A DNA stretch of 64,000 nucleotides, taken from positions 1 through 64,000 of the forward strand of contig VFJS01000054.1 in assembly GCA_009885955.1 (NCBI GenBank). Reading direction: 5' to 3'. This document shows, in pieces, positions 26,854 through 63,459 of this stretch. The position numbers and the translations under genes are program-made. Below the pieces are notes generated by a model that was not told where the DNA came from, did no database searches, and saw only the letters and a list, made by a program, of their open reading frames with translations. This DNA comes from Spirochaetia bacterium (lineage in GTDB: Bacteria > Spirochaetota > UBA4802 > UBA5550). How positions within the stretch are numbered: the stretch's first letter is position 1; each line of letters opens with the position of its first letter.

Positions 26854-27123
26854 TTATTTGAGTTCTCTGTATGCTGAAAGTCTGGATGTACAAATAAATG
26901 AATAAAAGATGCAGGGAAATAATACACCTTTACGAGCCATCGGCCGAAGTGCCATGACTTTATCTTCTTGAGAAGTCATGAAGAAATATATAATGTCATC
27001 ATCATGCTTGACTAATTCATTTATTATAATACAAATATGAATATCTTTGTTGGGAAGATTCGCTCTAAACGTAAAGCCTCTCATTAAAAAAGGCAGGTAA
27101 TGTGTCTCGAAGTTTAAATGCAT
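26854..27123 (-). CDS. Candidate toxin partner of the Panacea protein, possibly C-terminally disrupted
   Basis: An 89-residue protein whose ATG overlaps the stop of the Panacea gene by ten bases, so translation is probably coupled. The first 55 residues look like a compact domain (FRANLPNKDIHICIIIN, DDIIYFFMTSQEDKV). After about residue 57 the sequence turns Arg/Cys/Phe-rich (ARKGVLFPCIFYSFICTS) and seems unlike the rest, as if an original C-terminus had been replaced. Panacea proteins act as antitoxins to varied small toxins encoded next to them, so a toxin role is inferred from position. I recognise no toxin family. Confidence 0.42.
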   Translation of the reverse strand: MHLNFETHYLPFLMRGFTFRANLPNKDIHICIIINELVKHDDDIIYFFMTSQEDKVMALRPMARKGVLFPCIFYSFICTSRLSAYRELK

Positions 27124-27740
27124 TGATGATGATTGTTAACAAAATCCTCTTTCATGGCACTTATGAAGGATGGGTCTTCATCAAAGGGGTCATTCCCAAG
27201 ATACCTAATTATATATTTGCTGTTAGATAAATCAGGATTCTCAAAAAAATCTTCAAGTAAGATGTCTTCTCTATCGGTCAATTTATTATTAAATAAATGT
27301 TCATATCTTTTCCATTCAGGATAATCGTGTGTAATGTTAGATAATTCAAATTCATCAAATTTCCCAAAATGTTTTGCAGAGAAATCTAAGGATTTAATAG
27401 TACTTATAGATAAATGGTCTTTGTTGGTTTCCTGAATTTCTATTTCAAAATCAGATATAGGTTTTATAATTTTCTTTAAATATTCTGCTTGCTCATTGCT
27501 AATTTCATTATTATAAAAAAAATCATAAAAAGTATAAATATCCTTAGTTGAAGAACCCGACGGGCCTAATTTAATCGCTATGTATTTATCGAAAGTGAAC
27601 AAAGATCCCCAATGTCTTAGGTGATACCGATCAGCAAAAAATACAAGTTTTATTAATTTCATATAATGAGCTGCATCAGCCTTATTTTGCAAATAAGCTG
27701 ATGCCTGAGCAATTTTATAAATATTAAATTTTTTAAGCAT
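27114..27740 (-). CDS. Panacea-domain (SocA-like, DUF4065) protein, probable antitoxin
   Basis: The 208-residue protein shows the Panacea hallmarks: HYMKLIKLVFFADRYHLRHWG near 25-45, the Gly-Pro-Ser segment IKLGPSGSSTKD near 76-87, and LSNITHDYPEWKRY near 135-150. Panacea domains neutralise diverse toxins by direct binding and are found in bacteria and phages. The small gene downstream overlaps its end and would be the cognate toxin. No clear ribosome binding site precedes the ATG. The pair lies beside an ISL3 insertion sequence in an AT-rich accessory region. Confidence 0.72.
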   Translation of the reverse strand: MLKKFNIYKIAQASAYLQNKADAAHYMKLIKLVFFADRYHLRHWGSLFTFDKYIAIKLGPSGSSTKDIYTFYDFFYNNEISNEQAEYLKKIIKPISDFEIEIQETNKDHLSISTIKSLDFSAKHFGKFDEFELSNITHDYPEWKRYEHLFNNKLTDREDILLEDFFENPDLSNSKYIIRYLGNDPFDEDPSFISAMKEDFVNNHHQCI

Positions 27741-27913
27741 ATTATTACTACTTAGTATGAATTATCGAATATAAAATACTGAAAATAGAGGCACTTTTCA
27801 ATAAAGAATGGTTTTATTATAAAATCTTGTCAAGAAAAAAAATCATAGACATTTGTACAAACCTTTTATTTTATTTTAAATTTTATAAAAAATTTAACTT
27901 TTAATTAACTTAT

Positions 27914-29228
27914 GGCGCTTCCGGCTTTTGTGTGGCTAAGCATAATTTACCAATGATTCCGGCATAAGATCCAATCCGCCCAGATGAAATAGAATAGCCA
28001 TTCTGAATCTTTTTCTATTTCTAAATCCACATGCCATTTTTTTTATTCGTTGAATTCTTGCATTCTTGGATTCAGCTACAGCATTAGAAACTTTTGCAAT
28101 AATCGCATTTATGATTCCCCATAGGTAGTTCTTAACCATCCGTCCGACCTTCTTGACCGGATCAAGTCTGCACCGGCAAATCCAACCCAGTAAATGATGC
28201 CACTCCTTTTCTGCTGAACCTCTATATGTAAAATCCCACAATTTAGAAGCTGTCTCTTTAATTGCCCATGCCCGTGCAGTCTTTAATGTTGATCGTGTCA
28301 AAACCATAAAATCCCGACGGGAACGATTATCAGTGCGATGTGAATTTCTCAACCATTCATGCTTTGTCCGGGCAAGCGGACTTTCACTCCCACTATTAAA
28401 AAATGAACGGTTTTCCTGTGCCCTTACTTTGTCCAATGCTTTACCGAAATGTTGTGCAACATGAAATCTGTCAAAACATATCTTAGTCATGGCGGCCGGC
28501 ACTGTATTTTTGATTGCCAGAATAAATGGATCCCACATGTCTAATGAAACCGTTTTAATTGAATCAAGATGCTCCTGGGGCCTATTTTTAAGCCATTCCT
28601 CTAATGTTGCCGATTTTCTGTCGTCGAGAACTTCTAAAATAGCGTCATGTTCTTTATCGTAGATAACCGTAACATATTCGTGTCTTCTTTGAAATGAAGT
28701 TTCATCAATAGCAATATTCACCAGTGGCTTTTCTTCTCTCCGTTCAAGACCTCGCTTGACTGCACGTTCTTGAATACCGGCAACCTGATCCCATGAAAGA
28801 TTAAGAAGGTTACCCACTCCGGATAATGATGTTTCTTTAAGCCAATTTATAACCAGCGCTTCAAAGAGTGCGGTAAAATGAGAGTTAGTTTCCGCCCATG
28901 GCACACGTACTTGTTTCACTCCATGCTCATCACATGATATGCGAGGTACCTCACACTCAATAATAGTAGTCATCTGGCATGTGTCAAGGTGCCGCCACCG
29001 ACGGGTGTTATGATCATAGACCGATCCATTTGTATCGCAAACCGGACATTGCAATTTTTGCGATTGATTGTAACCGACTTTAATTGTTACAGTTTTATTG
29101 AGAAGGTCAAGCTTGACATTAGTTACATCCCAAGGCTGTTTGACACCTAAAATACTTTTATACAATTCTATATCATTCATAATAACAAATATACTCTAAT
29201 TTTTACCCATTGTAAAGCCTGAAGCCCC
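27914..29228. mobile_element. ISL3-family insertion sequence
   Basis: The transposase gene is framed by imperfect terminal inverted repeats. The left end begins GGCGCTTCCGGCTTTTGTG at 27914; the right end, read inward, begins GGGGCTTCAGGCTTTACAA at 29228. The ends share GG.GCTTC.GGCTTT and a TGG a few bases later. Total length is 1315 bases, normal for the family. No 8-base target duplication is evident (TAACTTAT on the left, GAAAGAAA on the right), so it may be old or rearranged. Confidence 0.8.
27936..29180 (-). CDS. ISL3-family transposase
   Basis: The full-length 414-residue transposase has an N-terminal zinc ribbon (about 44-80, CPVC followed by HNTRRWRHLDTCQ), a helix-turn-helix region (about 115-150) and a DDE-type catalytic domain. 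The stretches NIAIDETSFQRRHEYVTVIYD and KTVSLDMWDPFILAI carry two of the acidic residues. The reading frame is intact, so the element may still move. It occupies nearly all of the insertion sequence. Confidence 0.92.
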   Translation of the reverse strand: MNDIELYKSILGVKQPWDVTNVKLDLLNKTVTIKVGYNQSQKLQCPVCDTNGSVYDHNTRRWRHLDTCQMTTIIECEVPRISCDEHGVKQVRVPWAETNSHFTALFEALVINWLKETSLSGVGNLLNLSWDQVAGIQERAVKRGLERREEKPLVNIAIDETSFQRRHEYVTVIYDKEHDAILEVLDDRKSATLEEWLKNRPQEHLDSIKTVSLDMWDPFILAIKNTVPAAMTKICFDRFHVAQHFGKALDKVRAQENRSFFNSGSESPLARTKHEWLRNSHRTDNRSRRDFMVLTRSTLKTARAWAIKETASKLWDFTYRGSAEKEWHHLLGWICRCRLDPVKKVGRMVKNYLWGIINAIIAKVSNAVAESKNARIQRIKKMACGFRNRKRFRMAILFHLGGLDLMPESLVNYA

Positions 29229-41262: not shown

Positions 41263-41634
41263 ATTCCTGTCTGTTAAAAATAAACTGTATTTCAAAAATA
41301 AACTATCCCTGCATCAGTACAAAAGTGCAATTTTTATAAAAAAATTTGGCTGATTTTAAATAATTTTCAGCTCAATTATTATTATCAAAAAATTAAATTT
41401 ATTTATAAAATTTTGTATAAAGATATTTATAATTCATATTAACCAAATTACAAAATCAACACTGAATCGTCAATAAGTACTAATTCGTAGTTTTTGGATA
41501 CTTTTGCTAAATGCTGTGAAAAGACGAAAAATAACAATCTGCAATTATCTTTAATCATTATACATTTTTAGATATAATCTGGATTAAAAAACAGAGGAAC
41601 TCTATTAAAGTTCAGGGATGAATATTGATTAAAT

Positions 41635-41721: not shown

Positions 41722-44700
41722 CTAAGGCGCCTCCGCTTCATAAACGCGGCTTCCGGGAATTGTCCCTGTATACCATGGCCCAAGAGAACTGTGGCCCTTC
41801 CCATGGCAGGTTACCGAACAAGTCCTGGTTGCAGTATAAGTTCTCGTTCCCGATGTTTGCGATCCAAAGCTCACATTCTTCATCCTGTTCACATGCCTTG
41901 TACTCGATGCCGTACCTGCGCTAAAGTTAAATCTTATTTTTTCTACAGTCAGACTCGGTGTATCTGAAGCTGCCCCGCTGAATACCGTGGTATTGGCATG
42001 GCAATGGATGCATGTATACCCATGTTCCGTTATGCTTTGATGGTTATGCCCAGTTGTATTATGCAGAGGTTTTGGGTTTGTCGTCGGATTCCCTCCGTTA
42101 TTGTGACAGGAAACACAGGTCATCTGTGATTTCTGCGTACCTCCCCACCGCGGAGTCGTTATTCCAGGATCGGTAGAGGTTGTGGAATTTCCATTATCAT
42201 AGGTGAGGGTTGATGTGGAATACCCGTCACTGTGACAGTAGATATTGGAACAGGTAACGTCCTGGAGAGCGGTCGATGATGCCTTCACAGAGGTTGCGGT
42301 ACTTCCCGTAAAATTTGTATAAAAGCTCAACGCCGTCCTGTTGCCATCGGCATGGTTTGTGTAAACCGGGATTTTTGTGCCGGTTTCATAAGCGCCGCCA
42401 GCGCCGTTTCCGGTAGACAGTGTTCCCTGATAAACTCCCTGGTGGCAGAAACCGCAGGGGTAGTTGTACCCGTTCTGGGATATATATCCAGCATGCTCTG
42501 CATGGCTCTCATTGGTGCTCCAGGTCGACGTGGCAGTGGGAATCCCCAGCGCAGCGTTGGACCCTGCCCCGTGGCATGACCCGCAGGGTGCGGAAGCATC
42601 GCTCCACTTTATTGTATTCGCCGCATTGCCTTCTTTCCACCTCTGAGGACTTGATGTTGATGTTGCCCAGAAATCGCCATGGCAGTAGGTATAGGCGCAT
42701 GTCATGGTGCTCGTGGCATAGGTAGCAATGTTTGTGGTAGTAGTTGCACTGCCGGGCCCCTGGTCGGCAATGATCTTGTTCGCCGGATCATTCCCGAAAA
42801 ATACGTTTTTCGTGAAGTTGGCATGATAGAATATGCCTGTGCTCGTAGCACTATTGTCTATCTGGAACGGCCCGCCTTCTTTTGTCAGGTGATTGGTTAC
42901 CCTGTCGTGGCAGTTGGCGCACCGGTAGTTATAGAGCCCGGGAAGAGTATGTTCGTCATGGGCGTAGGTTGACGGCGCTATGTCGTGGCACGACCCGCAT
43001 GTTGCAGCCCCGTTCCATACCGGGGATGCCAGGAGCCCGCCGGTAAAATTCCCATGGCAGTAGGTATTGGCGCACTGGTTCGTCGTATCGTTATACGCGC
43101 TGGCCGACGGGTTCGTAGTAACGTCTATCTTCACCTGGAGCAGGCCGTCGGCATGGAGCGCGGTTAATACGGCCGAAGTGGTTGACGCCGTTTCCGACAC
43201 GACATTCTCATGGCACTTGTGACAGGAATAGTTGTATTTTACCGTGGACGGCGTATTCCCCACATGCCTGTCATGGGATCCCGAAACAAGAGTTCCCGCA
43301 GAGATCTTATGGCAGGCGTTGCATGCCACGGACCCGGGGCCTCCCCCTGCCGCAACTGTCCAGACCGGATCATTATTGGAGGCCGTTGTCGAGGCAAAGT
43401 TAAATTTCGCATTATCCAGCCAGTCCGTGCCGGCATTTCTGCTGTTCCCGTGGCAGTAGAGATTGTAGCACTTCTTCGCTGCCGGGCTGTTATATGAACC
43501 GTTGGGGTTCATTGAATCGAACCCGACTCCCGATGGGCCTCCGAATGTCCCGTCGGAATGGCCGAAGGATGTATGGCACCTGGTGCAGTCATAGTTATAT
43601 GTGGCATTCAGATGTTTCGGATGGCTGTCGGTATTGGGAGTCCCGTAACTGTGGCAGTCGAGGCAAGCCCCGCCCGTCCTTGCATCCCAATCGGCTATGT
43701 TAGCTGTCACCGGCACAATATAGGTGTTTCCGGTAAAGTCTCCGTGGCAATAGGTGTACTGGCATGTCTTATTTGCCTGGCTGTACGCTGCGCTGAAAGC
43801 CCCGGGCTTGTCACCTATGGATGCCGGATCAAATGCAACATTCTTAACACCATTCGAATGCGTAGATGTGGAGAATCCCGCGCTCGACGCAAATCCAGTT
43901 CCTGAACCGAAATGGCACATGGCGCAGCCGTACCTGTTTCCGTTCGTATGTTTGTCATGGCTTCCATAAACTACTGTTGCCGTGGGATTATTGTGGCACG
44001 ACCCGCAGGGGGCAGAACCTGCCCATGAAGGATTGGCTCCGTTGCCGCCGGTAAAATCACCATGGCAGTAGGTGCTGTTGCATGTCGGCGATGTGAATGT
44101 GGCGATTCCATCTACCCCCGCTACACTGGCTGCTGAACTGAGGGTGACGTTTTTTACTCCATTGGCATGGGTTGTATCCGTATACCCGTTTCCGGTATGG
44201 CAGCTTGTGCAGGCATACCCGTATCCTGCCGGATTCGTCAAAGTATGTTTGCCGTGGGCCCCCTGGGTATAGGTGCTGCTATGGCACTGGTTTGTGGAGC
44301 AGTTTGTAGTCCCGCCCCAGGATATTGAAACATTGTTTCCGCCTGTAAAGTTTCCATGGCAGTAGAGGTTTGAACACTGGTCAACACCGCTTGTATATCC
44401 TCCCGATGGGTTCAGGGTATCAAAGTTCATTTCAGCAACTCCGTTAACGGGCTTGTTGCCTACCTTATGGTGGTCGGTGTCTGCAACGCCGTCGCTGTGG
44501 CACCTGTCGCAGGTATAGGAATAAGGGGCTGACAGGTGTTTGGCATGGGATCTCTCATTCAGTGTGGATGTCTTGTGGCATGTACCGCAGGCGCCGGTAG
44601 AAGATGTCCCCCATTCAGGGGTGATATCGGTACCCTGGGTTGTGGCAGTAAGCGCTGAGCCGTGGCAGGTTACACTGGAGCACTGACCTGTTCCCGTTCC

Positions 44701-47700
44701 AGGGCTGTAGGTCCCTCCTCCGGACATGCTTACATTTTTTGTGCCGTCAACATGGCTGGAGAATCCCGGGCCCGCGTTGTTATGACAGGTGGAACAGGCG
44801 GTATATCCTATGAAAGTGACATGTTTCTGATGAGAACTGTCTGCAGGCAAACCGGTACCGTCGCCATGGCAGATATTGCATGTGGCTGCCGATGTGGTGC
44901 GCCAGTCAATGGACGCTGAGCCGGCACCGTGACAGCTTATGGATGAACAGGTTCCCGGCTCGCTGAAGGCGGCGCTTACGTTGCCCCATGTCGGTCCCTG
45001 GGATCCGTTGGTATCAAAGGCCAATATGGACGCCGCATCGCCAGTTCCATCGGCATGTTTTGAATCTGTCCTGTATCCTTCATGGCATACCTCGCACCCG
45101 ATGTTCCTTGTAGTCGCGTGAGTCGTATGCTTCCCTGCCGCGCCAGTGGCTCCCGGAGTAAGGCTGCCGGAATGGCAATTTGTACAGGCAAGGGCCCCTG
45201 CTACTGTCCAGTTCGGGGTCCCTGCCCCGTGGCACGACGAAACACTGCAGGTGGGACTTGTATACGTACCCGCAGTCATGGAAATATTGGCCGTTCCGTT
45301 AATATGCGCGGCGAATCCCGGTCCTGCGTTATTGTGGCAGGTGGAGCAGGCATAACTCTTATTCCCCGCTCCGCCGGCAGAGTGCTTCGTATGGGCACCG
45401 GTGGACGGAAGGCCGCTCGCGTCGCCATGGCAGATATTACAGTTTGTGGCCGCTGCAAACCAGTCCGTGCTTCCCGAACCGGCGCCGTGGCAGCTGATGG
45501 ATGAGCATGCTCCCGGTTCAGTATAGGTAGTGGTTACACTTCCCCATGCCGTAGCAAGAGATCCATCTGCATCAAAGGCCAGGACGGATACATTTTCATT
45601 GATATTATTGACATGCCTCGCATCTGCCCTGTATCCCTCATGGCATACTTCGCAGCCGATATTCCTTGAGGCCACATGGGCCGTGTGCTTCCCGGCTCCA
45701 GCTGTCGCGCCAGGCGTAAGTGCTCCCGTATGGCAGGTTGTACAGGCAAGGGCCCCGGCTACTGTCCAGTTGGGAGTCCCTGCCCCGTGGCAGTTCACGC
45801 TTGCGCACGTCGGGCTCGTATAGGTCCCGCCGTAGGTGGCAGACATGGTGACATTCTTTGTCCCATCAATGTGATTGGCATTGCCCGGGCCGGCATTGGT
45901 ATGGCATGCCGTACAGGCATAACTCTTGTTTCCCGCTCCGCCGGCAGAGTGCTTCGTATGTGCTCCGGTAATTGGAAGACCGCTTGCATCCCCGTGGCAG
46001 ATACTGCAGGCCGCTGTTCCAGCGTACCAGTCCGCCGTGGCTGAACCGGTTCCGTGGCAGCTTATGGACGCGCAAGTCCCGGCAGCGTCGCTGTACGTCG
46101 CTGCTACCGTGCCCCCCACCGCGTAGCTCCCTGCCCATACAATATCTGTCTGGGCTATTTCACTTTTATTTAATGTCCCGTTTACATGCTGTGTTTTGGA
46201 TATCGTATACCCGGTATGACATGTAAGGCATGTCACCCCTGAAGCCGCAGTATGTTTCACATGCTTCCCTGCCGTACCAGTGCCGCCGATTGTTCCGTTG
46301 GGGTCTATGGCGCTCCCGGATTTATGGCAGTCAAGGCATCCCAGCGCCGCTACCGATGTCCACACCGGCGCTCCGCCGCTGGTTCCACCGTGGCAGCTCA
46401 CTGTGTTACAGGTCTTGCTGGCCGATGTATATGTTCCGCCGTAACTTGCAGCCATTGCCACATCAGCAGTATTGTTTAAATGCACATTCCCTGTATGGCA
46501 GGCGCTGCAGTTCCCCGGATATTTTGTCAGATGCTTCGTGTGCGCGTTTGTCCCGGGATTACCGGTACTGTCTATCCCATGGCAGGTATTGCAGGCCGTT
46601 GTTGCCGCGTACCAGTTCGCTGTCGCCGAGGTTGCTCCGTGGCAGCTTATGGACGCGCAGGTCCCCGCAGCGTCACTGAAGGCCGCTGCTACCGTGCCCC
46701 CTACCGCGTAGTTCCCTGCCCACACAATGTCTGTCTGGGCTATATCTGTTTTATTCAATGTACCGTTTACGTGCTGTGTCCTTGATGTAGTGTACCCCGT
46801 ATGGCACGTGAGGCATGTCACCCCTGAAGCCGCAGTATGTTTCACATGCTTCCCTGCCGTACCAGTGCCCCCGATTGTCCCGTTGGGGTCTATGGCGCTA
46901 CCGGACTTATGACAGTCTGCGCATACAAGCGACACCGCCGATGTCCATACCGGCGCTCCGCCGCCGGCCCCCCCGTGGCAGCTCACCGTGCCGCAGGTTT
47001 TTGTCGCCGATGCATAGGTACCGCCGTAGGTTGTGAGGTTTACATCCACCGTCTTATTTATATGGGCATTCCCCAGATGGCAGGCATTGCAATTCGCCGG
47101 ATACTTGGCCAGATGTTTCGAATGGGCATAGGTTACCGGAGGATTCCCGTGGCATGAGCCGCAGGTAACCGAACCCGGCACGCCCCATGTGGGGCTCGCC
47201 GATGCGCCCATTGTTGATCCATGGCAGTAATTGGAATTGCAGGTTGTGCCGTTGTATGTGCCTCCATGACTCGTTCCCCCTTCAAAGCTGATCATGGTTG
47301 GAGTTGTGGCCCATGTATTATCGATCCCGTTTGCATGGCTCGATGTCCCTTTGTATCCAGAATGGCACTCGGTGCAGTTATATCCCATGGTGGTAATATG
47401 GGTGCCGTGACTTCCATTATCAGGATTTATGAGCGAATTTGCGTTATGGCAGTCGGCGCAGGCAAGAGTTTTTGTAGTCCTCCAGTTTACCGGATTGGTC
47501 CCTGCCACATTGTTGGCTCCGTGACAGGCAACATTGGAGCATTTCCCCGCCCCTGTTGTGCCGAAAGGATCTATATTCTTGCCGGGATCGGTTTCAGTGA
47601 CTGCAACGCCATTATAGGTTCCGTTGAACTTCACGAAAGGAGTCTGATTTGTACCGTCCATGTGTGTCGGTTCCTGCTTATAATCATTGTGGCAGAGATT

Positions 47701-50133
47701 GCAGTCGATGCCCTTGTCAAGGTGGGTTTTATGGTTATCCCCTGATATTGAGCCCGGCTGCGGGGTTATCAGTGCCGACGAGTGGCAGGTGAGACAATTC
47801 GCCGTTCCTGGCAGGTACCAGGTATAAACACCTGTTGGGCCGCCATGGCATGATATCCCATCACACCCCCCTGTACCGTCAGTATATGTTGTGACGGCTA
47901 TTATTTTTGATTTCCAGCTTCCCGTATGTGAAAGTGATGTTATATCGATCTTACCGTAGATCCCGTTTCCATGAGCCGGAAGCATGTTGTAATTATTGTG
48001 GCATGCCTCGCATGGGATTCCCTTCTTCACAACATGGGATTTGTGTTTTCCCTGGATACCTTCCCCGCTTGTATAGATAGGGTCAATGGCACTACCGCTT
48101 TGCAGAGTATGGCAGTCAGTACAGGCGGTAATGGTCCCGGTCCATGCCGGTGACCCGCCGCCGTGGCAGAAAAGGGTGCCGCATATCCCGGTTCCCGGAG
48201 TGCCGCCTGCCGTGTAGCTCCCTGACGGGTTAAGGGCAGTATTGAATGAAATCATCCCGGGGGCCGTTTCCGAATTCTCAAGGGCCCCGTTTGTATGGGT
48301 AAGGCTGGAGTTGTAGTTAAAATGGCACTCAGCGCATGCCAGGCCTTTCGTCAGGTGTTTTGCATGCCCCCCGGAAGTGGGATCTATTGACAGTGTTCCA
48401 TCCAGTGTTTTGGCGCCGCCCATGTGGCATGTGGCGCAGCCTGCCGGGGCAGCGTACCACTGGGTTGTGATTCCGCTGTTACTCCCTTCATGGCAGGAGA
48501 TATTTCCGCAGGCGGAGTCGTTATTATTTGTCCCGTCATTGTAAACAAAAGAGACCGTATAGCCCGCAGGCCAGACCGCGCCGCCCCCTGAGGAGAGAGA
48601 AGTTATTTCCAGCCTCCCGTATCCGGAATTATTGTTTATATGTTTAGTATTGCCGGTGTAGTCGTAATGGCAGAGGACACAGTCGATCTTCCTGTCGGTG
48701 ACATGAATGGTGTGCTTGCCGTTTGTACCGGACCCGTTTGTATTCATGGGGTCTAAGGCGCTTCCTGATTTATGGCATTCCGTACAGCCCGATATATCCC
48801 TGTACCAGTTCGCGTCGCTGTTGTTGTGGCAGGAAATGCTGCCGCATGTTCCCGAGGTATCATCATAAGAGGAGATGGAAACGGAAGAGCCATTGAATAC
48901 CACGGAGGTATTCATGTATACAATGGTTGATGTTTCAGCCTTCCCGTAGGGGGATTTGCCATGGGCGGGCTTATCCTTATAATTATAATGGCATACCTGG
49001 CAGCCTATCCCATTGTCGGAGTAATGAGGCACATGTTTCCCTCCGACGCTGCTCCCGTTGGTGGTCATGGGATCGATACTGCTCCCCGGTGTATGGCAGC
49101 TGATACAGTTGGTAATGGCCCCGCCGCCCCATGCCGGAGAGCCTCCTCCGTGGCAGTAGAGGGTATCACAGTTACCGGTGCCGGGGCTTCCGCCGTATGT
49201 GTATGACCCCGATGGATTCAGGGACGCGCTGAACATAATCATGGAAGGGGCATTCCCGGGATTGTTCGTTGAACCGTTTATATGTGTTTCAGCGGAGCTG
49301 TAGCCGCTATGGCAGTCAGTGCACGCATATCCCCTGGACAGATGTTTGGAGTGGTTGCCGGTTGAGGGGTTGATTGATGTTCCGGAAGCATGGCAGTTTT
49401 CGCATAGCTGCGGCGATGTGGAGTACCAGTTGAATGCTGAGGGATTTCCGTGGCATATGATATTCGTACATGTTCCCGATCCCGATCCTTTAACAAAAAC
49501 AAAGGATTCCGATGGATTTCTCCTTACCAGATTAACATTTTCCTTTACGCCGTAGATCCCGTTCATGTGGGAGGGCTCTTTTTTATACTCATAATGGCAT
49601 ATTTCGCAATCGACATTTTTGCCCGCATGAATCTTATGTTTCCCCCTGTTGCCCTCCCCGTTGGTGGAAACCGGATCATTCGAGCCTCCGCCGGAGTGGC
49701 AGGTGAGGCATCCCGTGCCTGACGTATACCAGTTAATTTCCGAAGTGCCGCCGCCATGGCATATAATATCACTGCAGTTTTCCGTAGGCTTGTTCCAATG
49801 TGTTGCGCTGTTCTGTTTGTTAAAAAGGACAATGTCAATATTGGAGCTTCTTCCATCCACCTTCCCGTCCTTGTGACTCCTGTCCTTGTCATAGAGGCCG
49901 TGGCAGTCGTCGCAGATCTTCCCTGCTGTGGAATGCTCTATATGCTTGCCGCTCAGCGGGGTTGACCTTGAATCCATCGGGACATAACTTTTTAAAGGTG
50001 ATGATAAATGGCATTCCGATGCTGCGCAAGCCGTTGTTTTCGGTTTTTCACGCATCTTACTGCAGGCTGTCAAAAATAGTAATATTACAGAAGAAATGAC
50101 GATGGTTGACTGGAATTTATTTTTACAAAACAT
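41722..50133 (-). CDS. Giant multiheme c-type cytochrome lipoprotein, about 78 heme motifs
   Basis: One uninterrupted frame of 2803 residues with a lipoprotein signal (lipobox LTAC near residue 24) and a GAGGG ribosome binding site. By eye I count 78 heme motifs: 50 CxxCH, 27 CxxxxCH and one CxxxCH. They are laid out as about 26 triads (two CxxCH, one CxxxxCH), one triad per about 105 residues. Extra histidines (KHxxH before each CxxCH) could serve as distal ligands. The middle shows recent internal duplication. It probably forms a heme wire on the cell surface or across the periplasm. A NarX/NarL-like pair lies directly upstream on the same strand. Heme loading needs maturation genes not in this window. 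Confidence 0.9.
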   Translation of the reverse strand: MFCKNKFQSTIVISSVILLFLTACSKMREKPKTTACAASECHLSSPLKSYVPMDSRSTPLSGKHIEHSTAGKICDDCHGLYDKDRSHKDGKVDGRSSNIDIVLFNKQNSATHWNKPTENCSDIICHGGGTSEINWYTSGTGCLTCHSGGGSNDPVSTNGEGNRGKHKIHAGKNVDCEICHYEYKKEPSHMNGIYGVKENVNLVRRNPSESFVFVKGSGSGTCTNIICHGNPSAFNWYSTSPQLCENCHASGTSINPSTGNHSKHLSRGYACTDCHSGYSSAETHINGSTNNPGNAPSMIMFSASLNPSGSYTYGGSPGTGNCDTLYCHGGGSPAWGGGAITNCISCHTPGSSIDPMTTNGSSVGGKHVPHYSDNGIGCQVCHYNYKDKPAHGKSPYGKAETSTIVYMNTSVVFNGSSVSISSYDDTSGTCGSISCHNNSDANWYRDISGCTECHKSGSALDPMNTNGSGTNGKHTIHVTDRKIDCVLCHYDYTGNTKHINNNSGYGRLEITSLSSGGGAVWPAGYTVSFVYNDGTNNNDSACGNISCHEGSNSGITTQWYAAPAGCATCHMGGAKTLDGTLSIDPTSGGHAKHLTKGLACAECHFNYNSSLTHTNGALENSETAPGMISFNTALNPSGSYTAGGTPGTGICGTLFCHGGGSPAWTGTITACTDCHTLQSGSAIDPIYTSGEGIQGKHKSHVVKKGIPCEACHNNYNMLPAHGNGIYGKIDITSLSHTGSWKSKIIAVTTYTDGTGGCDGISCHGGPTGVYTWYLPGTANCLTCHSSALITPQPGSISGDNHKTHLDKGIDCNLCHNDYKQEPTHMDGTNQTPFVKFNGTYNGVAVTETDPGKNIDPFGTTGAGKCSNVACHGANNVAGTNPVNWRTTKTLACADCHNANSLINPDNGSHGTHITTMGYNCTECHSGYKGTSSHANGIDNTWATTPTMISFEGGTSHGGTYNGTTCNSNYCHGSTMGASASPTWGVPGSVTCGSCHGNPPVTYAHSKHLAKYPANCNACHLGNAHINKTVDVNLTTYGGTYASATKTCGTVSCHGGAGGGAPVWTSAVSLVCADCHKSGSAIDPNGTIGGTGTAGKHVKHTAASGVTCLTCHTGYTTSRTQHVNGTLNKTDIAQTDIVWAGNYAVGGTVAAAFSDAAGTCASISCHGATSATANWYAATTACNTCHGIDSTGNPGTNAHTKHLTKYPGNCSACHTGNVHLNNTADVAMAASYGGTYTSASKTCNTVSCHGGTSGGAPVWTSVAALGCLDCHKSGSAIDPNGTIGGTGTAGKHVKHTAASGVTCLTCHTGYTISKTQHVNGTLNKSEIAQTDIVWAGSYAVGGTVAATYSDAAGTCASISCHGTGSATADWYAGTAACSICHGDASGLPITGAHTKHSAGGAGNKSYACTACHTNAGPGNANHIDGTKNVTMSATYGGTYTSPTCASVNCHGAGTPNWTVAGALACTTCHTGALTPGATAGAGKHTAHVASRNIGCEVCHEGYRADARHVNNINENVSVLAFDADGSLATAWGSVTTTYTEPGACSSISCHGAGSGSTDWFAAATNCNICHGDASGLPSTGAHTKHSAGGAGNKSYACSTCHNNAGPGFAAHINGTANISMTAGTYTSPTCSVSSCHGAGTPNWTVAGALACTNCHSGSLTPGATGAAGKHTTHATTRNIGCEVCHEGYRTDSKHADGTGDAASILAFDTNGSQGPTWGNVSAAFSEPGTCSSISCHGAGSASIDWRTTSAATCNICHGDGTGLPADSSHQKHVTFIGYTACSTCHNNAGPGFSSHVDGTKNVSMSGGGTYSPGTGTGQCSSVTCHGSALTATTQGTDITPEWGTSSTGACGTCHKTSTLNERSHAKHLSAPYSYTCDRCHSDGVADTDHHKVGNKPVNGVAEMNFDTLNPSGGYTSGVDQCSNLYCHGNFTGGNNVSISWGGTTNCSTNQCHSSTYTQGAHGKHTLTNPAGYGYACTSCHTGNGYTDTTHANGVKNVTLSSAASVAGVDGIATFTSPTCNSTYCHGDFTGGNGANPSWAGSAPCGSCHNNPTATVVYGSHDKHTNGNRYGCAMCHFGSGTGFASSAGFSTSTHSNGVKNVAFDPASIGDKPGAFSAAYSQANKTCQYTYCHGDFTGNTYIVPVTANIADWDARTGGACLDCHSYGTPNTDSHPKHLNATYNYDCTRCHTSFGHSDGTFGGPSGVGFDSMNPNGSYNSPAAKKCYNLYCHGNSRNAGTDWLDNAKFNFASTTASNNDPVWTVAAGGGPGSVACNACHKISAGTLVSGSHDRHVGNTPSTVKYNYSCHKCHENVVSETASTTSAVLTALHADGLLQVKIDVTTNPSASAYNDTTNQCANTYCHGNFTGGLLASPVWNGAATCGSCHDIAPSTYAHDEHTLPGLYNYRCANCHDRVTNHLTKEGGPFQIDNSATSTGIFYHANFTKNVFFGNDPANKIIADQGPGSATTTTNIATYATSTMTCAYTYCHGDFWATSTSSPQRWKEGNAANTIKWSDASAPCGSCHGAGSNAALGIPTATSTWSTNESHAEHAGYISQNGYNYPCGFCHQGVYQGTLSTGNGAGGAYETGTKIPVYTNHADGNRTALSFYTNFTGSTATSVKASSTALQDVTCSNIYCHSDGYSTSTLTYDNGNSTTSTDPGITTPRWGGTQKSQMTCVSCHNNGGNPTTNPKPLHNTTGHNHQSITEHGYTCIHCHANTTVFSGAASDTPSLTVEKIRFNFSAGTASSTRHVNRMKNVSFGSQTSGTRTYTATRTCSVTCHGKGHSSLGPWYTGTIPGSRVYEAEAP
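45081..46905. repeat. Tandem intragenic repeats within the giant cytochrome gene
   Basis: Long near-identical segments recur at exact codon multiples. Sequence at 46061-46312 recurs 585 bases later (195 codons), and sequence around 45081 recurs 558 bases later (186 codons). Each unit encodes six heme motifs. The similarity is high at the DNA level, so the copies are recent or kept alike by gene conversion. Confidence 0.75.
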
Positions 50134-50501: not shown

Positions 50502-51161
50502 TTAAACAATCCCCTTATAAATGGAAAATTTAATCAGATCAGCCATGTTATCAATTGAAAGCTTTTTCATAATGTTGGACCTGTGGACCTCCACGGTACG
50601 TTTGCTTATATGAAGCATTTCACCTATCCCCCTGCTTGTCATGCCCCTGACTATGTGCTTCAATATCTCCATTTCCCGCCTGGTCAGGAGCTTTGTAAAG
50701 TCCCGGTTATCCATTACGACCCCGGTATCCTCCTTGTCAAGGTCAGCCAGCTCACTGGAAAAGGACTTCCCCCCGGACCGTATCTTTTTTATGGCATGGA
50801 TAATCTCATCGATGACATCATCTTTCAGAATATATCCATCCACATTGAGTGACAGGGCGTACCTGTAATGTTCCCTCTCCTTATGCATGGATACTATCAG
50901 AACCCTGACATGGGGGTAGATTTTCCTGATATGGTTAAGGGCTTCCAACCCGTCCATGTTAGGCATAGAGAGGTCGAGGATAACAAGGTCGCAATCGTGC
51001 CGGCGCAGGGTATCAAGAAGCTCCAGGCCGTCGCCTGCCTCCTGTATAACGGTAAATCCCGGCACCATGTTTATCAGGTTTTTAAGGCCCGCCCTGAAAA
51101 CCGGGTGGTCATCGGCCAGTATGATCCTGTACCGGTTATCAGATGTTTCTTGGTATTTCAA
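50502..51161 (-). CDS. NarL/FixJ-family response regulator
   Basis: The 219-residue regulator has a receiver domain (about 12-130, acidic pair D17/D18, phospho-acceptor D63, lysine in YILKDD) and a C-terminal LuxR-type helix-turn-helix (about 155-215; LTRREMEILKHIVRGM, SKRTVEVHRSNIMKKL). It should bind DNA once phosphorylated by the kinase encoded upstream, whose gene overlaps its start by 23 bases. The next gene downstream on the same strand is the giant cytochrome, a likely target. Confidence 0.92.
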   Translation of the reverse strand: MKYQETSDNRYRIILADDHPVFRAGLKNLINMVPGFTVIQEAGDGLELLDTLRRHDCDLVILDLSMPNMDGLEALNHIRKIYPHVRVLIVSMHKEREHYRYALSLNVDGYILKDDVIDEIIHAIKKIRSGGKSFSSELADLDKEDTGVVMDNRDFTKLLTRREMEILKHIVRGMTSRGIGEMLHISKRTVEVHRSNIMKKLSIDNMADLIKFSIYKGIV

Positions 51162-52938
51162 TGGTAATCACCGTTCCTTTCCCTTTCCGGGAATGAAAAT
51201 CAAATTTTCCGTTCAGAAGCCCGGCCCTCTCATTCATAATGAGGAGCCCGAGGCCATGGGCATGGGAATTTTCACTGCCCGGCGCCTTCATATCGATGCC
51301 TGTCCCATTATCCTTTATTGTCATGGTAAGGGTGTCATCGACGAGAGAGACCCTGATGGAGACACCTGTTGCCCCGGAATGTTTGATGATGTTCGTCATT
51401 GACTCCTGGACCATTCTGTAGAGATTAATATCCCAGTTGCCGGGAAAAAAATTATCCAGCTTATCAACATCAACCCTGATATCCATATTCCTGCTGATAT
51501 TCATGGTTTCCACCATGGATATGATGGCTTTCGGCAGCCCCATGGCCTTGAATCCCACGGGGCTCAGGCTCCTTGAAATTTTTCTGGCATCGTTGATAAT
51601 AGTGTCAATGTAGCTCATGATCCCGGAATAATCGTCTCCGGCATCTCCTTTCCCCGGGTTCGCAGTAATAAAATTGTAAACCATTATCTTCAGGGCCTGC
51701 AGGGAGCCCCCCATGTTGTCATGTATCTCCCTGGATATCCTGCCGCGCTCATCCTCCTGAAGCCTGATCATCTCCTGTGACAGGTGCCGTATGGTCTCCT
51801 CGGCCCTTTTCCGGTACGTGATATCCTGGATTACGCATACATACCTGTCAACCAGCTCATAATCCCCTGCCATTTTTGTTATGGAATAGGCCACAGGGAT
51901 AGTCCTCCCCGACGGTGATGTTATCAATGACTCCTTCTGTATCAGGCCCGTATGTTCAATGATCCTTTTCAGATTCTCATTCCAGTGGAAGCTCCCCCTG
52001 GGAAAAAGCCGGGAAAATTTACTGCCGGTTATCTCCTCTTCCTTACATAAAAGCATAAAAGAAGCGGCATGGTTGATATTCAGAATATTCCCATCCTGGG
52101 ATATAACAATGATGGAGTCGTTCATATTCTGAAGAATGCTGTCAAAATACTCCTTTGAAACGGTAATCGTCTGGAGCTGTTCAGCCATAACATTAAACGA
52201 CTCAATAAGGTCCCCGAGCTCATCTTTTGCGGTTGCGTGCAGCCTCACCATGATATCGCCTGACCCTATCTTCCTCACCGCGCTGCCGACAGAAGATATG
52301 GACCTGCTGAAATGCCGTGAAATAAAATATCCTATAATCAGGCAGAAGAGTATAGACCCGCCCCATGATATGAACAGGCTCTTTTCAATCTGAGACAGAG
52401 CCGCTTCGTTTTCCTGCAAAAGTTCCTTCATCTCTATATTCGATGCTGCCCGGATATGATCAAGGTTATGGATGATATTCTCTGCAATGTTCCTGAGCGG
52501 TCTGAATTGATTCCTGTATATTTCTCTTGAATGTTGAGAAATATATTGATGGGGATATCCTAGTATAATAACATTTATGTCATTGAATTTTTTTAAATTG
52601 CCCTCAAGCTCATGATAAAGGGCAATCACATTTTGATGTTTAGAATCAGTCTTCTTCACAGAATGATAAAGGTCCATGATGTCGGCAAATTTTGCAAGGT
52701 AATTATCCCTCTCAGTTATATTCCCGGAAGTCATATATCTGTAAAGGGGCTGTATACTGAGGTTCAGGTGTATCGATAACCTGCTGATGTCGTTTAATAT
52801 GGATAGATGAACGTTGTATTCATACTTGTCATCTGCGATGATATGGTACTTATAATTCCAGTAGGCTGAAAATATATAAAAGGGAATGATGGCAATAATG
52901 AAAGAGAGGGTCAGTTTAAATGTTATTCCAAATCTCAT
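51139..52938 (-). CDS. NarX-like sensor histidine kinase (HAMP-PAS-HisKA_3)
   Basis: The 599-residue membrane kinase has helices at about 8-28 and 190-210 enclosing a helical periplasmic sensor of about 150 residues. A HAMP domain (about 210-265), a PAS domain (about 270-385), a HisKA_3 box (RISREIHDNMGGSLQALK) and a HATPase domain (NIIKHSG, DNGTGID) follow. The layout is that of NarX-type kinases, but the periplasmic domain lacks a motif I can tie to nitrate. It is co-transcribed with the response regulator gene. The PAS domain could sense redox or a small ligand. Confidence 0.9.
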   Translation of the reverse strand: MRFGITFKLTLSFIIAIIPFYIFSAYWNYKYHIIADDKYEYNVHLSILNDISRLSIHLNLSIQPLYRYMTSGNITERDNYLAKFADIMDLYHSVKKTDSKHQNVIALYHELEGNLKKFNDINVIILGYPHQYISQHSREIYRNQFRPLRNIAENIIHNLDHIRAASNIEMKELLQENEAALSQIEKSLFISWGGSILFCLIIGYFISRHFSRSISSVGSAVRKIGSGDIMVRLHATAKDELGDLIESFNVMAEQLQTITVSKEYFDSILQNMNDSIIVISQDGNILNINHAASFMLLCKEEEITGSKFSRLFPRGSFHWNENLKRIIEHTGLIQKESLITSPSGRTIPVAYSITKMAGDYELVDRYVCVIQDITYRKRAEETIRHLSQEMIRLQEDERGRISREIHDNMGGSLQALKIMVYNFITANPGKGDAGDDYSGIMSYIDTIINDARKISRSLSPVGFKAMGLPKAIISMVETMNISRNMDIRVDVDKLDNFFPGNWDINLYRMVQESMTNIIKHSGATGVSIRVSLVDDTLTMTIKDNGTGIDMKAPGSENSHAHGLGLLIMNERAGLLNGKFDFHSRKGKGTVITIEIPRNI

Positions 52939-53183: not shown

Positions 53184-53723
53184 ATGAAAAAAATCATTCT
53201 TCCGGTATTATTCATCCTCACCATGACATGCATCGGCATCTGCCTTTCAGCAGCTGACAAAGCTGTAGAAAAAAGGATTCCCAATAAAAAAACCGAGAAG
53301 GGCAGGGAGATTGCAATCAGTCCTCCCCCTTTCAGCGCGGGGATATTCCCCTGTACCGAATGCCATTCGGGAATGCCGGTAAACTATAACAGGCGGGCCC
53401 TCACCGAGGAGCATGCAAATATTGTCTTCACTCACGATGAAAAGAACCGCTGGTGCCTTGACTGCCACAGCGCGGGAAACAGGGACTTTCTCCATCTTGC
53501 CAGCGGCAGGCTTGTCAGCTTTCAGGAGTCCTATAAGCTCTGCGGGCAGTGCCACGGCCCCAAACTGCGCGACTGGGAAAAAGGCGTCCATGGGAAAAGA
53601 AGCGGTTACTGGAATGGCGAGAAGAAGTATCTCCTCTGTGTTCATTGCCATAACCCCCATTCACCGGCCTTTAACCCTCTTCAGCCGATGCCGCCGCCAG
53701 TCCGGCAGGAGAATATCAGATGA
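53184..53723 (+). CDS. Periplasmic tetraheme cytochrome c
   Basis: The 179-residue exported cytochrome has a signal peptide (about 1-23) and four CxxCH motifs (CTECH, CLDCH, CGQCH, CVHCH). His residues upstream of several motifs could be distal ligands. It resembles the NrfB/cytochrome-c7-like subunits that accept electrons from NrfC/NrfD-type quinol oxidases. The ferredoxin gene overlaps its end by four bases, so the two are translationally coupled. It would hand electrons from the membrane module to periplasmic or surface cytochromes. Confidence 0.88.
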   Translation: MKKIILPVLFILTMTCIGICLSAADKAVEKRIPNKKTEKGREIAISPPPFSAGIFPCTECHSGMPVNYNRRALTEEHANIVFTHDEKNRWCLDCHSAGNRDFLHLASGRLVSFQESYKLCGQCHGPKLRDWEKGVHGKRSGYWNGEKKYLLCVHCHNPHSPAFNPLQPMPPPVRQENIR

Positions 53724-54646
53724 AGAATAAAATAGAAAATGCCGGGATACCAATGGAAGAAAAAGATAAAAGCACAACCACAAGAAAAAACCTCCTGAAA
53801 ACAGCTGCTGCTGCAGGGATGATGCTTGCAACGGGATGCAAAATGAGCATGGAGGAATTTCTTCAGAAAAATTTCAAAACCCTCACCGATTCAGAAAAAA
53901 AAGAGATCATTACCAGGCTCGAAAGTGAATATTCAAAAAAGTACGGGAAAAAATTTACCGTTTCCGCACAGGAACCCATAGAGGGGACTCTCTTCGGATA
54001 TGCCCTTGACATCTCAAGGTGCATCGGCTGCCGCAGATGCGTCTATGCCTGCGTGAATGAAAATAACCAGTCCAGGAAACCGCAGGTCCACTGGATCCAG
54101 GTGCTCCAGATGGACAAGGAGAAAGGTATCGATTACCACCACTCTGATACCCACTACAACCCTCCAAAAGTGCCCCTTGAGGGGCATTTCTATCTTCCCG
54201 TGGCATGCCAGCAGTGCAGAAACCCGCAGTGTACAACGGTCTGCCCGGTGAAAGCAACATGGCAGGAGATCGACGGAATCGTTGTCGTGGACTACAACTG
54301 GTGCATCGGCTGCAGGAACTGCATGGCAGCATGCCCCTATGGCGCCAGGCATTTCAACTGGGGCCAGCCATCCATACCCAACGAGGAGGTCAACCCTGAG
54401 ACACACTACCTGGGAAACAGGCCCAGGATGAAAGGGGTAGTTGAAAAATGCACCTTCTGCATCCAGAGGGCACGGGCCGGCCTCTATCCGTCATGCGTTG
54501 AAGTGTGCCCGGTGGGAGCAAGAAAATTCGGAAACCTCCTCGATCCGGAGAGCGAAATCAGGTACATATTGAAAACAAAAAGGGTCCTTATTTTGAAGGA
54601 GGACCTTAATACTCAGCCGAAATTCTATTATTTCTTCGGCGTGTGA
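53720..54646 (+). CDS. Exported four-cluster ferredoxin (NrfC/PsrB-like)
   Basis: The 308-residue protein has four [4Fe-4S] motifs in the NrfC/DmsB order: CIGCRRCVYAC, CQQCRNPQCTTVCP, CIGCRNCMAACP and CTFCIQRARAGLYPSCVEVCP. The N-terminus carries TTRKNLLKTAAAAGMMLATGC, a Tat-like signal with Lys instead of the second Arg and a possible lipobox Cys. It would link NrfD to the tetraheme cytochrome on the outer face of the membrane. No molybdopterin subunit is encoded nearby. The start overlaps the cytochrome gene's stop. Confidence 0.9.
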   Translation: MKNKIENAGIPMEEKDKSTTTRKNLLKTAAAAGMMLATGCKMSMEEFLQKNFKTLTDSEKKEIITRLESEYSKKYGKKFTVSAQEPIEGTLFGYALDISRCIGCRRCVYACVNENNQSRKPQVHWIQVLQMDKEKGIDYHHSDTHYNPPKVPLEGHFYLPVACQQCRNPQCTTVCPVKATWQEIDGIVVVDYNWCIGCRNCMAACPYGARHFNWGQPSIPNEEVNPETHYLGNRPRMKGVVEKCTFCIQRARAGLYPSCVEVCPVGARKFGNLLDPESEIRYILKTKRVLILKEDLNTQPKFYYFFGV

Positions 54647-54708
54647 TATTCAGAAAAATGGTAACTACTCAGACAGAAAATAGGAAAAAAAATTTGCTCA
54701 GGTCTTAG

Positions 54709-54840
54709 CACGGATAAACACTGATAAAATTGAGATAATAATGAGAATTTAATATTGAATTCAAAAAATAAATTTAAAATGAGAGTAAGTTTTTGATAAT
54801 GATATTAAAAAAAATCCGCGAAAATCCGTGTGTATCCGTG
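54709..54840. repeat. Imperfect inverted repeat between ferredoxin and NrfD genes
   Basis: Arms CACGGATAAACACTGAT (54709-54725) and ATCCGTGTGTATCCGTG (54824-54840) face each other around an AT-rich middle. Similar CACGGATxxACACGGAT segments are common interspersed repeats in bacterial genomes. It occupies the unusual 263-base gap inside an otherwise tight operon. Confidence 0.5.
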
Positions 54841-54909
54841 AGCAAATACATTAAAATGTATTAACAAATTCAGGCGGACTGATTATATAATAATATTGAG
54901 GGTGATACA

Positions 54910-56199
54910 TTGAAATTTATAAAATTCATACTCCTGAGCATAAAAATATTTTTACGGGGCGGAAAATATTTCTATCTATGGATATCCTTTCTCCTCCTGC
55001 TCATACTATGGGGGGTTACCGGTTATATTAACCAGATCAGCGACGGCCTCATTGTTACAAGCATGCGTGATTCCGTCTCCTGGGGTTTTTACATAGGAAA
55101 TTTCACGTTCCTCGTGGGAGTTGCCGCTGCATCCATCATGCTCGTAATCCCGGCCTACATCTATGAATGGAAGCCGATTAAGGAAGTGGTCATATTCGGA
55201 GAGATACTTGCAATATCATCAGTTATTATGTGCCTCCTCTTCATCATTGCCGACATGGGGCAGCCCCTCAGGTTCTGGCACATGCTCCCGATCCTGGGTA
55301 CCATGAATTTCCCGTCATCCATTCTGACCTGGGACGCCATGGTGCTCAACTCCTATCTCTTTCTCAACCTGTTCATTGTAACATACCTGCTCTACCACGC
55401 CTTTATTAAAAAAGAGTATAACAAGTCCATTGTAATGCCGCTGATTTTATTATCGATACCGCTGGCCGTGGGGATTCACACCGTCACTGCCTTTCTCTAT
55501 AACGGGATGCCGGCCCGGCATTACTGGAACAGCGCCATACTGACGCCGAAGTTCATTGCCTCTGCCTTCTGCTCGGGCCCGGCAGTAATGCTGATTCTGT
55601 TCCAGATATTAAGAAAAATAACAAGCTTCCAGATTAAAGACGAGGTATTCTGGAAAATAGCTGAACTCATGGCCTATGCCATGTTCTTGAATCTCTTCCT
55701 CACCGGCTCCGAGATTTTCAAGGAGTATTACTCGGACACTGAACACCTCATCTACCATAAATATCTTTACACCGGCATAGGAAAACACAACGACCTCGTG
55801 ATATACGCATGGAGCTCCATCATCATGGGTATTGCGGCATTTTTTCTTTTCCTCATACCGAAGACCAGGACAAATTTCCTTACGCTGAATATAGGTGCAG
55901 TATTCATCTACCTGAGTGTCTATGTGGAAAAGGGCATTGGCCTTATCATTCCCGCATTTACACCCGATGTACTGGGACAATTTTACATTTATACCCCATC
56001 ATGGGCCGAGTTACGGGTGGCAGCAGGTATTTTTTCTTTAGGATTTTTACTTTTTACCTTCATGGTGAAGGTGGCAATCGCCATAATTTTTGAAGATTTC
56101 AACATAGACAAACTGTCATCGCTCACATTCAGGGATATATTTAAAAATATCATTGATGATAAATCAGCCCCTAAGCCTGAATCAGCATCCCGGGGATGA
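54910..56199 (+). CDS. nrfD: NrfD/PsrC-family membrane quinol-interacting subunit
   Basis: An integral membrane protein of 429 residues with about ten helices, of the NrfD type that binds quinone and passes electrons to an outer-face ferredoxin. Typical are the early GFYIGNFTFLVGVAAASIML and the Met/Trp/Pro-rich loop around MGQPLRFWHMLP. The start is a TTG with an excellent GAGGGTG site. It completes the cytochrome-ferredoxin-NrfD set, which should oxidise menaquinol or, in reverse, reduce the quinone pool. The 263-base gap before it holds a repeat. Confidence 0.9.
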   Translation: MKFIKFILLSIKIFLRGGKYFYLWISFLLLLILWGVTGYINQISDGLIVTSMRDSVSWGFYIGNFTFLVGVAAASIMLVIPAYIYEWKPIKEVVIFGEILAISSVIMCLLFIIADMGQPLRFWHMLPILGTMNFPSSILTWDAMVLNSYLFLNLFIVTYLLYHAFIKKEYNKSIVMPLILLSIPLAVGIHTVTAFLYNGMPARHYWNSAILTPKFIASAFCSGPAVMLILFQILRKITSFQIKDEVFWKIAELMAYAMFLNLFLTGSEIFKEYYSDTEHLIYHKYLYTGIGKHNDLVIYAWSSIIMGIAAFFLFLIPKTRTNFLTLNIGAVFIYLSVYVEKGIGLIIPAFTPDVLGQFYIYTPSWAELRVAAGIFSLGFLLFTFMVKVAIAIIFEDFNIDKLSSLTFRDIFKNIIDDKSAPKPESASRG

Positions 56200-61870: not shown

Positions 61871-62794
61871 TTATATCACAGGTCTTGGCAAAAGACCAGC
61901 ATTTTCTACAATTTCATGAACTTTTTCTTCCCATTCAATGGCCATGACATGAATACCGCTCACCCCTTCAATCTTCCTGAGCCTGTCGATGGTCTCTAAG
62001 CACATTTTAATCCCCTCTTCAGATTGCTTTTCCTTGGGGACAGACTTAAGGCGCTGAATCAGTTCATCAGGAATATCCATGCCGGGAACCTTATTTTTCA
62101 TGTAGTTTGCCATGCCCACGGACTTGAACGGGGTAACCCCGGCCAGGATATAGACCTTTTTGTGCAGGCCCCTCTCCCTTAATCCTTCCATCCACTTCTC
62201 AAACTTGTCCATATTATATATACACTGTGTCTGAATAAACTGGACACCGGCATTAATTTTTTTCGCAGTCCTGGGGACCCGTATTTCAAAAGGGTCGGCA
62301 AAGGGATTCTCCGCGGCCCCGATGAACATTTTAGGGGGATCTACAATAGGGTCGCCGCCGAGAAATTTGCCTTCATCGCGCATTAATTTTACCGTCTGGA
62401 TGAGCTGTATGGAATCCATGTCATATACATTTTTTGCCTTCGGATTATCTCCAAACTTCTGGTGGTCGCCTGAAAGACATAGAATATTGCTGATTCCATG
62501 GGCGGCAGCGCCGAGAATATCGCTCTGGATGGCTATGCGGTTTCTGTCCCTGGTGACCATCTGCATAATCGGCTCCAGGCCCATCTGCTTCAGCAGAATG
62601 GATGCCGAGATGCTGGACATTCTAACAACAGCTGTCTGGTTATCGGTGACATTTATGGCATCAACGCAGTTCCTCAAAAGTTCGCCCTTTTTCTTTATTG
62701 TTTCCGGGTTTGTCCCCCTTGGCGGGCCGCACTCCGAGGTTACGACGAATTCCCCTTTTTCCAGGAGTCTTGAAAGTTTGCTTTCCGGAATCAT
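61871..62794 (-). CDS. metF: Methylenetetrahydrofolate reductase, MetF
   Basis: A 307-residue TIM-barrel flavoprotein that reduces methylene-tetrahydrofolate to methyl-tetrahydrofolate. The start resembles MetF of anaerobes (VTSECGPPRGTNP), with NVTDNQTAVVRMSS and LCLSGDHQ in the folate/flavin region, and GVQFIQTQCIYN and AGVTPFKS further on. It overlaps metV by four bases. In the MetFV arrangement it acts with the MetV zinc protein, often in larger complexes with HdrA and MvhD, in the methyl branch of the Wood-Ljungdahl pathway or in one-carbon metabolism. Confidence 0.92.
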   Translation of the reverse strand: MIPESKLSRLLEKGEFVVTSECGPPRGTNPETIKKKGELLRNCVDAINVTDNQTAVVRMSSISASILLKQMGLEPIMQMVTRDRNRIAIQSDILGAAAHGISNILCLSGDHQKFGDNPKAKNVYDMDSIQLIQTVKLMRDEGKFLGGDPIVDPPKMFIGAAENPFADPFEIRVPRTAKKINAGVQFIQTQCIYNMDKFEKWMEGLRERGLHKKVYILAGVTPFKSVGMANYMKNKVPGMDIPDELIQRLKSVPKEKQSEEGIKMCLETIDRLRKIEGVSGIHVMAIEWEEKVHEIVENAGLLPRPVI

Positions 62795-63459
62795 AGCGTT
62801 AAATCCTCCCTCACAATCCTTCTAAGTCCGCCGTCGCGGCTTGTTGACCAGTCCTTTAAAGGAATTATCTCTTCATAGGCATCGGTGAGCCCGAGCTCTT
62901 TTAACCTGTCATAGATCAGCTGCCAGCCGCAGGAGATGTCCTTGTGAATTTCACATTTCCCCAGTGACGATCCGCCGCAGGGGCCGTTCAACAGACTCTT
63001 TGCGCACCTCGTTATGGGGCATATCCCGCCGGTCCTGTCCAGGATGCAGTTGCCGCACGTCTGGCACCTTTCAGTCCATATGCCCTGTTTTTCAGTCACT
63101 CCGACAAAATTCGTGTTTATGGCAGGGAGGATGATTTTTGATTTGTACATCTCCGCGCAGTACTGAACACCTGCCCCGCAGGCCAGGGAGAGCACAGCAT
63201 CATAGTTATTTATGTATCCCCTCATCAGCACCAGGTATTCGGTGTCGCATTGCCTCTCCAGGGTTTCTTCCTTTATTTCAATCGGATTATTATCCTTTGC
63301 CCTTGCAAGTCTAATGGTTGATGACAAAACTTCCACCTCTTTCTTTCCGCCTGCTGAACATACGGTAACGCATCCCTTGCATCCGACGACAAGGAGCTTT
63401 TTTTTATCTGATATCATGGATAGAATTTCCTCTATCGGTTTCCCTTCGCCTATTACCAT
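62791..63459 (-). CDS. metV: MetV, zinc-containing partner of MetF
   Basis: The 222-residue protein has Cys-rich clusters: VVGCKGCVTVC at the start, then CQTCGNCILDRTGGICPITRC and LLNGPCGG in the second half. These are hallmarks of MetV (the methylenetetrahydrofolate reductase C-terminal family), which binds metal or iron-sulfur clusters and forms the core complex with MetF. The overlap with metF fits coupled expression. The MvhD gene lies upstream on the same strand, across a repeat element. Confidence 0.9.
   Translation of the reverse strand: MVIGEGKPIEEILSMISDKKKLLVVGCKGCVTVCSAGGKKEVEVLSSTIRLARAKDNNPIEIKEETLERQCDTEYLVLMRGYINNYDAVLSLACGAGVQYCAEMYKSKIILPAINTNFVGVTEKQGIWTERCQTCGNCILDRTGGICPITRCAKSLLNGPCGGSSLGKCEIHKDISCGWQLIYDRLKELGLTDAYEEIIPLKDWSTSRDGGLRRIVREDLTL

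Follow-up and report, generated by a model that had tools for sequence, protein, structure and literature searches.

Among the described systems closest to the protein considered here are the CxxxxCH/CxxCH cytochromes of Geobacter (TIGR01904/PF09698), built on a domain in which a CX4CH motif is followed by CxxCH. Giant multiheme cytochromes have precedents in iron-respiring bacteria and methane-eating archaea: Desulfuromonas acetexigens expresses an 86-motif cytochrome on electrodes and iron oxide (PMC12133095), and the archaeon 'Ca. Methanoperedens manganicus' possesses a 113-heme multiheme cytochrome tied to metal-dependent respiration (PMC7082337). In the OmcB/ExtABCD systems of Geobacter and MtrCAB of Shewanella, a porin is laid out together with a periplasmic multiheme cytochrome and a lipoprotein cytochrome. 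Here we describe P1, a giant c-type cytochrome lipoprotein encoded in a 64,000-nucleotide stretch of a spirochaete metagenome-assembled genome (MAG); this whole stretch is referred to as the window. As far as we found, it is the host phylum, Spirochaetota, that is new. P1 resembles the D. acetexigens protein as a single giant with a comparable number of motifs, seen there under conditions of extracellular electron transfer, but the two hosts belong to different phyla and the likeness is one of published motif count, not of sequence. The likeness to the 'Ca. M. manganicus' protein, archaeal unlike P1, is one of description as a giant multiheme protein, again not of sequence.

P1 is a single open frame of 2803 amino acids on the reverse strand (41722-50133, stop codon included) starting with ATG. 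A script count gives 50 CxxCH, 27 CxxxxCH and one CxxxCH motifs, 78 in total, numbers identical to those of an earlier sequence-only reading, whose 2803-residue frame with a lipoprotein signal is likewise borne out by the open reading frame and the lipobox LTAC. Random expectation, from 2000 residue shuffles, is a mean of 1.6 motifs and a maximum of 7. Nearly all cysteines (156 of 158) lie within motifs, the exceptions being the signal-peptide residue C3 and the lipobox residue C24. The signal peptide (50062-50133, reverse strand) was recognized by inspection and hydropathy from a hydrophobic N-terminus and the lipobox, is the sole strongly hydrophobic stretch in the protein, and is expected to leave an acylated Cys24. 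Mature P1 has a mass of ~286 kDa, or 334 kDa with 78 hemes, corresponding to 36 residues per heme. Both CXXXXCH and CXXXCH have been found by mass spectrometry to bear heme in MmcA (PMC11024163), which justifies in principle the counting of such sites in P1.

The motifs form a regular array, determined by script as a 4-2 dyad, 24 triads of the order 4-2-2 plus one 4-4-2, and a final CxxxCH. The regularity claimed in the sequence-only reading holds, while its estimate of about 26 triads resolves into 24 canonical triads and one variant triad, to which a dyad and a terminal motif are added; shuffling the motif order of P1 yields at most 17 triads. Across the 36 units of P1 and its paralogue P2 (see below), the common plan is CX4CH-G, W, CxxCH, HxxH, CxxCH and H, often followed by N/D-G. 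Three histidine columns outside the motifs are kept in 34, 34 and 36 of these 36 aligned units, and P1 has 88 non-motif histidines against its 78 motifs. One extra conserved histidine per heme matches what bis-histidine ligation of every heme would need; distal ligands appear to be on hand for each P1 heme, and all of them may be bis-histidine ligated. An AlphaFold model of a four-triad (12-heme) segment was unusable for structure (pLDDT 35, pTM 0.16).

P1 matches the NCBIfam model TIGR01904 (CxxxxCH/CxxCH domain c-type cytochrome) in 26 stretches (E 1.3e-150), scoring 489 bits against a curated cut-off of 27, and the unit of this family, CX4CH then CxxCH, is found in the 24 4-2-2 triads, the 4-4-2 triad and the dyad. 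It is therefore a cytochrome of a kind already known. Pfam assigns cytochrome c7 and PF09698 (GSu_C4xC__C2xCH). The earlier reading had referred such repeats to Geobacter-like anaerobes; the domain type is indeed shared with the Geobacter cytochromes, but the host is a spirochaete, and P1 has the longest unbroken strict 4-2-2 run (18, runner-up 11) among the 80 related frames with at least 25 motifs that were examined. A phmmer search with whole P1 against the PDB gave no meaningful match, and a first scan of named genomes, with P1 as the sole query, found no relative. The profile A2 gave weak matches to chains of known structure, including c7-like, MtrF and nitrite reductase chains; no chain named for the filament cytochromes OmcS, OmcE or OmcZ was among these matches, and no relation to nanowires emerged from them.

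Among these 80 frames are two of 2959 and 2872 amino acids with 81 and 78 motifs from Myxococcales MAGs (L105 and L101). They fall in the size class of P1 and mix CX4CH with CxxCH as it does, but are built from pentads rather than triads. These regular 4-2-2-2-2 pentads (L105:9719-18595 and L101:6329-14944) represent a second repeat-based design among giant cytochromes. P1 as a record in size is ruled out by the published proteins with 86 and 113 motifs and by both Myxococcales frames. The description of P1 as far beyond ordinary multiheme cytochromes is accordingly correct in its count of 78 and has to be tempered by precedents at 113, 86, 81 and 78 motifs.

Downstream of P1 on the same strand lies a tandem neighbor of the same family, the paralogue P2 (37483-41262), a 30-motif lipoprotein cytochrome of 1259 amino acids from its ATG; a longer TTG frame begins at 41295. 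Comparison of the two by triads divides P1, all on the reverse strand, into three parts. The N-terminal cap (49777-50028), the CX4CH + CxxCH dyad, has its best match in the P2 cap. The C-terminal chassis (41725-43764), comprising triads 21-25 and the last CxxxCH, is collinear with the end of P2, its five triads pairing one after another with triads 5-9, the last five of that protein, at 37-63% identity. Between cap and chassis, P1 carries 20 triads (43765-49776; 60 motifs, one triad being 4-4-2) versus four in P2, i.e., about 16 added. Within these, triads 9-17 (44683-47241) would be the youngest part: they are tandem two-triad (six-heme) copies, visible in the DNA as direct repeats spaced 558-585 nt and 72-86% identical, and alternate P1 triads reach 87% protein identity. 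From this pattern, P1 seems to have arisen from a P2-type chassis that gained some 16 triads via duplicated six-heme units. A tree of the C-terminal part places P1 and P2 as sisters (97/89) inside a spirochaete group (100/100). In the same tree, locus L070, from a spirochaete of another family, groups with the MAG G006 and not with the window's genome (97/69), a placement that hints at either exchange between spirochaetes or paralogs not recognized as such.

A repetitive gene in MAG data could be a product of assembly or binning, either through joined repeats or through a metal-reducer contig binned with a spirochaete, and TIGR01904-type domains, frequent in Geobacter, are seldom found in spirochaetes. 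We nevertheless consider such an origin of the frame very improbable. The internal repeats have drifted apart, the two most alike sharing 86% over 300 nt, and no exact repeat exceeds 59 nt, which makes a joined-repeat artefact unlikely; identical repeat copies may have been collapsed in the assembly. The GC3 of P1 (0.57) lies inside the range of the neighboring genes (0.35-0.62). The same 184-kb contig (C10) of the host MAG, which is 4.77 Mb in size and 98% complete, bears two FlaA genes; this flagellar sheath protein of spirochaetes turned up in 58 of the 59 genomes scanned and was missing from all 14 controls. The bin yielded no 16S rRNA, and the host is placed in Spirochaetota by FlaA and by its named relatives. 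Finally, P2 and the P1 C-terminus have their closest homologues in two other spirochaete MAGs, 'Spirochaetes bacterium Dive96_bin3.202' of the host's family (G006, locus L071; JAJRXZ010000050.1) and 'Spirochaetia bacterium Bin_58_12' of the same phylum (G201, locus L070; VFLI01000013.1).

Directly upstream of P1 on the reverse strand, Pfam identifies a NarL/LuxR-type response regulator (50502-51161) and a histidine kinase with HAMP and PAS domains (51139-52938) whose gene overlaps that of the regulator. A divergent three-gene module follows on the forward strand, consisting of a secreted tetraheme cytochrome with four CxxCH (53184-53723), an iron-sulfur subunit that is DsrO-like but below the DsrO model cut-off (53720-54646), and an NrfD/DsrP-type integral membrane subunit (54910-56199; PF03916; 400.5 bits on the DsrP model, cut-off 350). 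These genes putatively encode a menaquinol-interacting, quinol-oxidizing module; as a trio of tetraheme, FeS and NrfD/DsrP-like subunits it resembles DsrJOP or a Cbc-type quinol oxidase. Promoter and terminator scans gave signals scarcely above those of shuffled sequence. Elsewhere in the window, an AT-rich patch at 27114-29180 (GC 0.29 at 26-28 kb) carries an ISL3-type transposase and a SocA/Panacea-type protein, and at 61871-63459 a MTHFR adjoins a DUF5981 (MTHFR C-terminal, MetV-like) protein, a pairing also known in acetogens.

No porin gene stands beside P1 in the window, so that co-encoding with a porin and a periplasmic multiheme cytochrome is not seen for P1. The nearest redox genes (53184-56199) are of inner-membrane or periplasmic type and no outer-membrane gene is adjacent, a setting that would also suit a periplasmic store, with P1 tethered either to the inner membrane or to the inner leaflet of the outer one and its hemes buffering electrons between quinol oxidation and several conduits. 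Both the size and the heme number of P1 fit storage. We regard this role as unlikely, however, given that the closest P2 orthologue stands in a porin-cytochrome cluster of the sister MAG L070. There a putative porin comes first, followed by an 11-heme cytochrome, the P2 orthologue (33 motifs, 52% identical to P2) and a further lipoprotein cytochrome; ResB and genes for cytochrome assembly lie close by. The orthologue thereby appears to sit in a porin-cytochrome layout, where the porin, as in all our porin calls, is called only by its features (signal sequence, aromatic strand-like pattern and C-terminal F). Pfam gave no match for the porins, and an AlphaFold model of a putative porin was unusable (pLDDT 27). 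Beside these conduit genes, L070:5595-7091 encodes a protein of the Leptospira-named LIC12015/LA_1883 putative lipoprotein family, below cut-off.

The layout of L070 is that of OmcB/ExtABCD and MtrCAB, and parts of such conduits are present in the P1 host genome; in contrast to those systems, P1 is not clustered with a porin in the window and no sequence family was detected for the putative porins. On the window's own contig, CcmB, CcmC, CcmE and CcmF (Ccm System I) are encoded at 112-118 kb, and at 163.3-165.9 kb a putative porin (501 aa, barrel-like) precedes a 14-heme cytochrome, a pair that recurs in another spirochaete with a 52% identical barrel protein. Contig C60 carries a cluster of a putative porin with 21-heme and 8-heme cytochromes. 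Further TIGR01904-family loci of the host, with up to 23 motifs, are on contigs C5, C70, C80 and C95, and the lipoprotein signal is shared by P1, P2 and other family members from spirochaetes. Beside an intact 23-motif family member, two overlapping frames with 6 and 8 motifs (L064:6178-8452, i.e., G000:C5:9177-11451) seem to be the pieces of a single lipoprotein cytochrome of this family, split by a frameshift.

On this evidence, P1 is probably an outer-membrane lipoprotein with 78 bis-histidine c-hemes that acts as the outermost carrier and store of electrons bound for extracellular acceptors. This surface-chain reading draws on the TIGR01904 assignment, the conserved histidines, the lipobox, the divergent NrfD/FeS/tetraheme genes, Ccm, the putative porin-cytochrome pairs and the placement of the L070 P2 orthologue, as well as on the expression of the D. 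acetexigens giant (PMC12133095). Electrons would pass from menaquinol to the NrfD/FeS/tetraheme module (53184-56199), on to periplasmic multiheme cytochromes and through a porin-cytochrome conduit in the outer membrane to P2 and P1 on the surface, from where they would reach a mineral, humic matter or a partner cell. The extracellular or long-range electron transfer proposed in the sequence-only reading fits the context of quinol-oxidase-like genes, Ccm and porin-cytochrome pairs; heme loading and surface exposure of P1, the direction of electron flow and the contact between modules are what we infer. Since direction is not readable from sequence, and porin-cytochrome conduits also serve inward flow in Fe(II) oxidizers (PMC6148476), the surface cytochromes might instead be charged by Fe(II), an electrode or a syntrophic partner and pass the electrons to the quinone pool. 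Such inward flow seems distinctly unlikely: we saw no marker of Fe(II) oxidation next to the genes, and many TIGR01904 relatives are named as metal-reducing genera (Geobacter, Anaeromyxobacter, Desulfuromonas).

To our knowledge, spirochaetes are not usually counted as metal- or electrode-respiring. TIGR01904 occurs in 5 of 393 sampled Spirochaetota genomes, representing five genera of 168, and in one of 22 genomes of the family of 'Spirochaetia bacterium Bin_58_12'. This rarity in the phylum, combined with a private spirochaete group in the tree, points to acquisition long ago or to transfers between spirochaetes. A literature search for spirochaete multiheme machinery, of incomplete coverage and thus weak as an absence, returned only spirochaete abundance in electrode enrichments, and the searched text of PMC11475568 and of FeGenie (PMC7005843) reports no spirochaete multiheme cytochromes.

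P1 illustrates how a heme array can grow, with a conserved cap and C-terminal chassis and a duplicated six-heme unit between them. A bolder reading, tentative and in our view somewhat unlikely, is that a free-living spirochaete lineage respires extracellularly via a single-molecule 78-heme wire, extendable by six-heme duplication. If true, one P1 polypeptide would do the job of the polymerized nanowires in Geobacter. Heme spacing in OmcS is ~0.8 nm per heme; if the P1 hemes formed one extended chain at this spacing, it would span some 60 nm. With P1, P2, family loci on four more contigs, Ccm and putative conduits in one genome, electrode or metal respiration by a spirochaete becomes a testable proposition.
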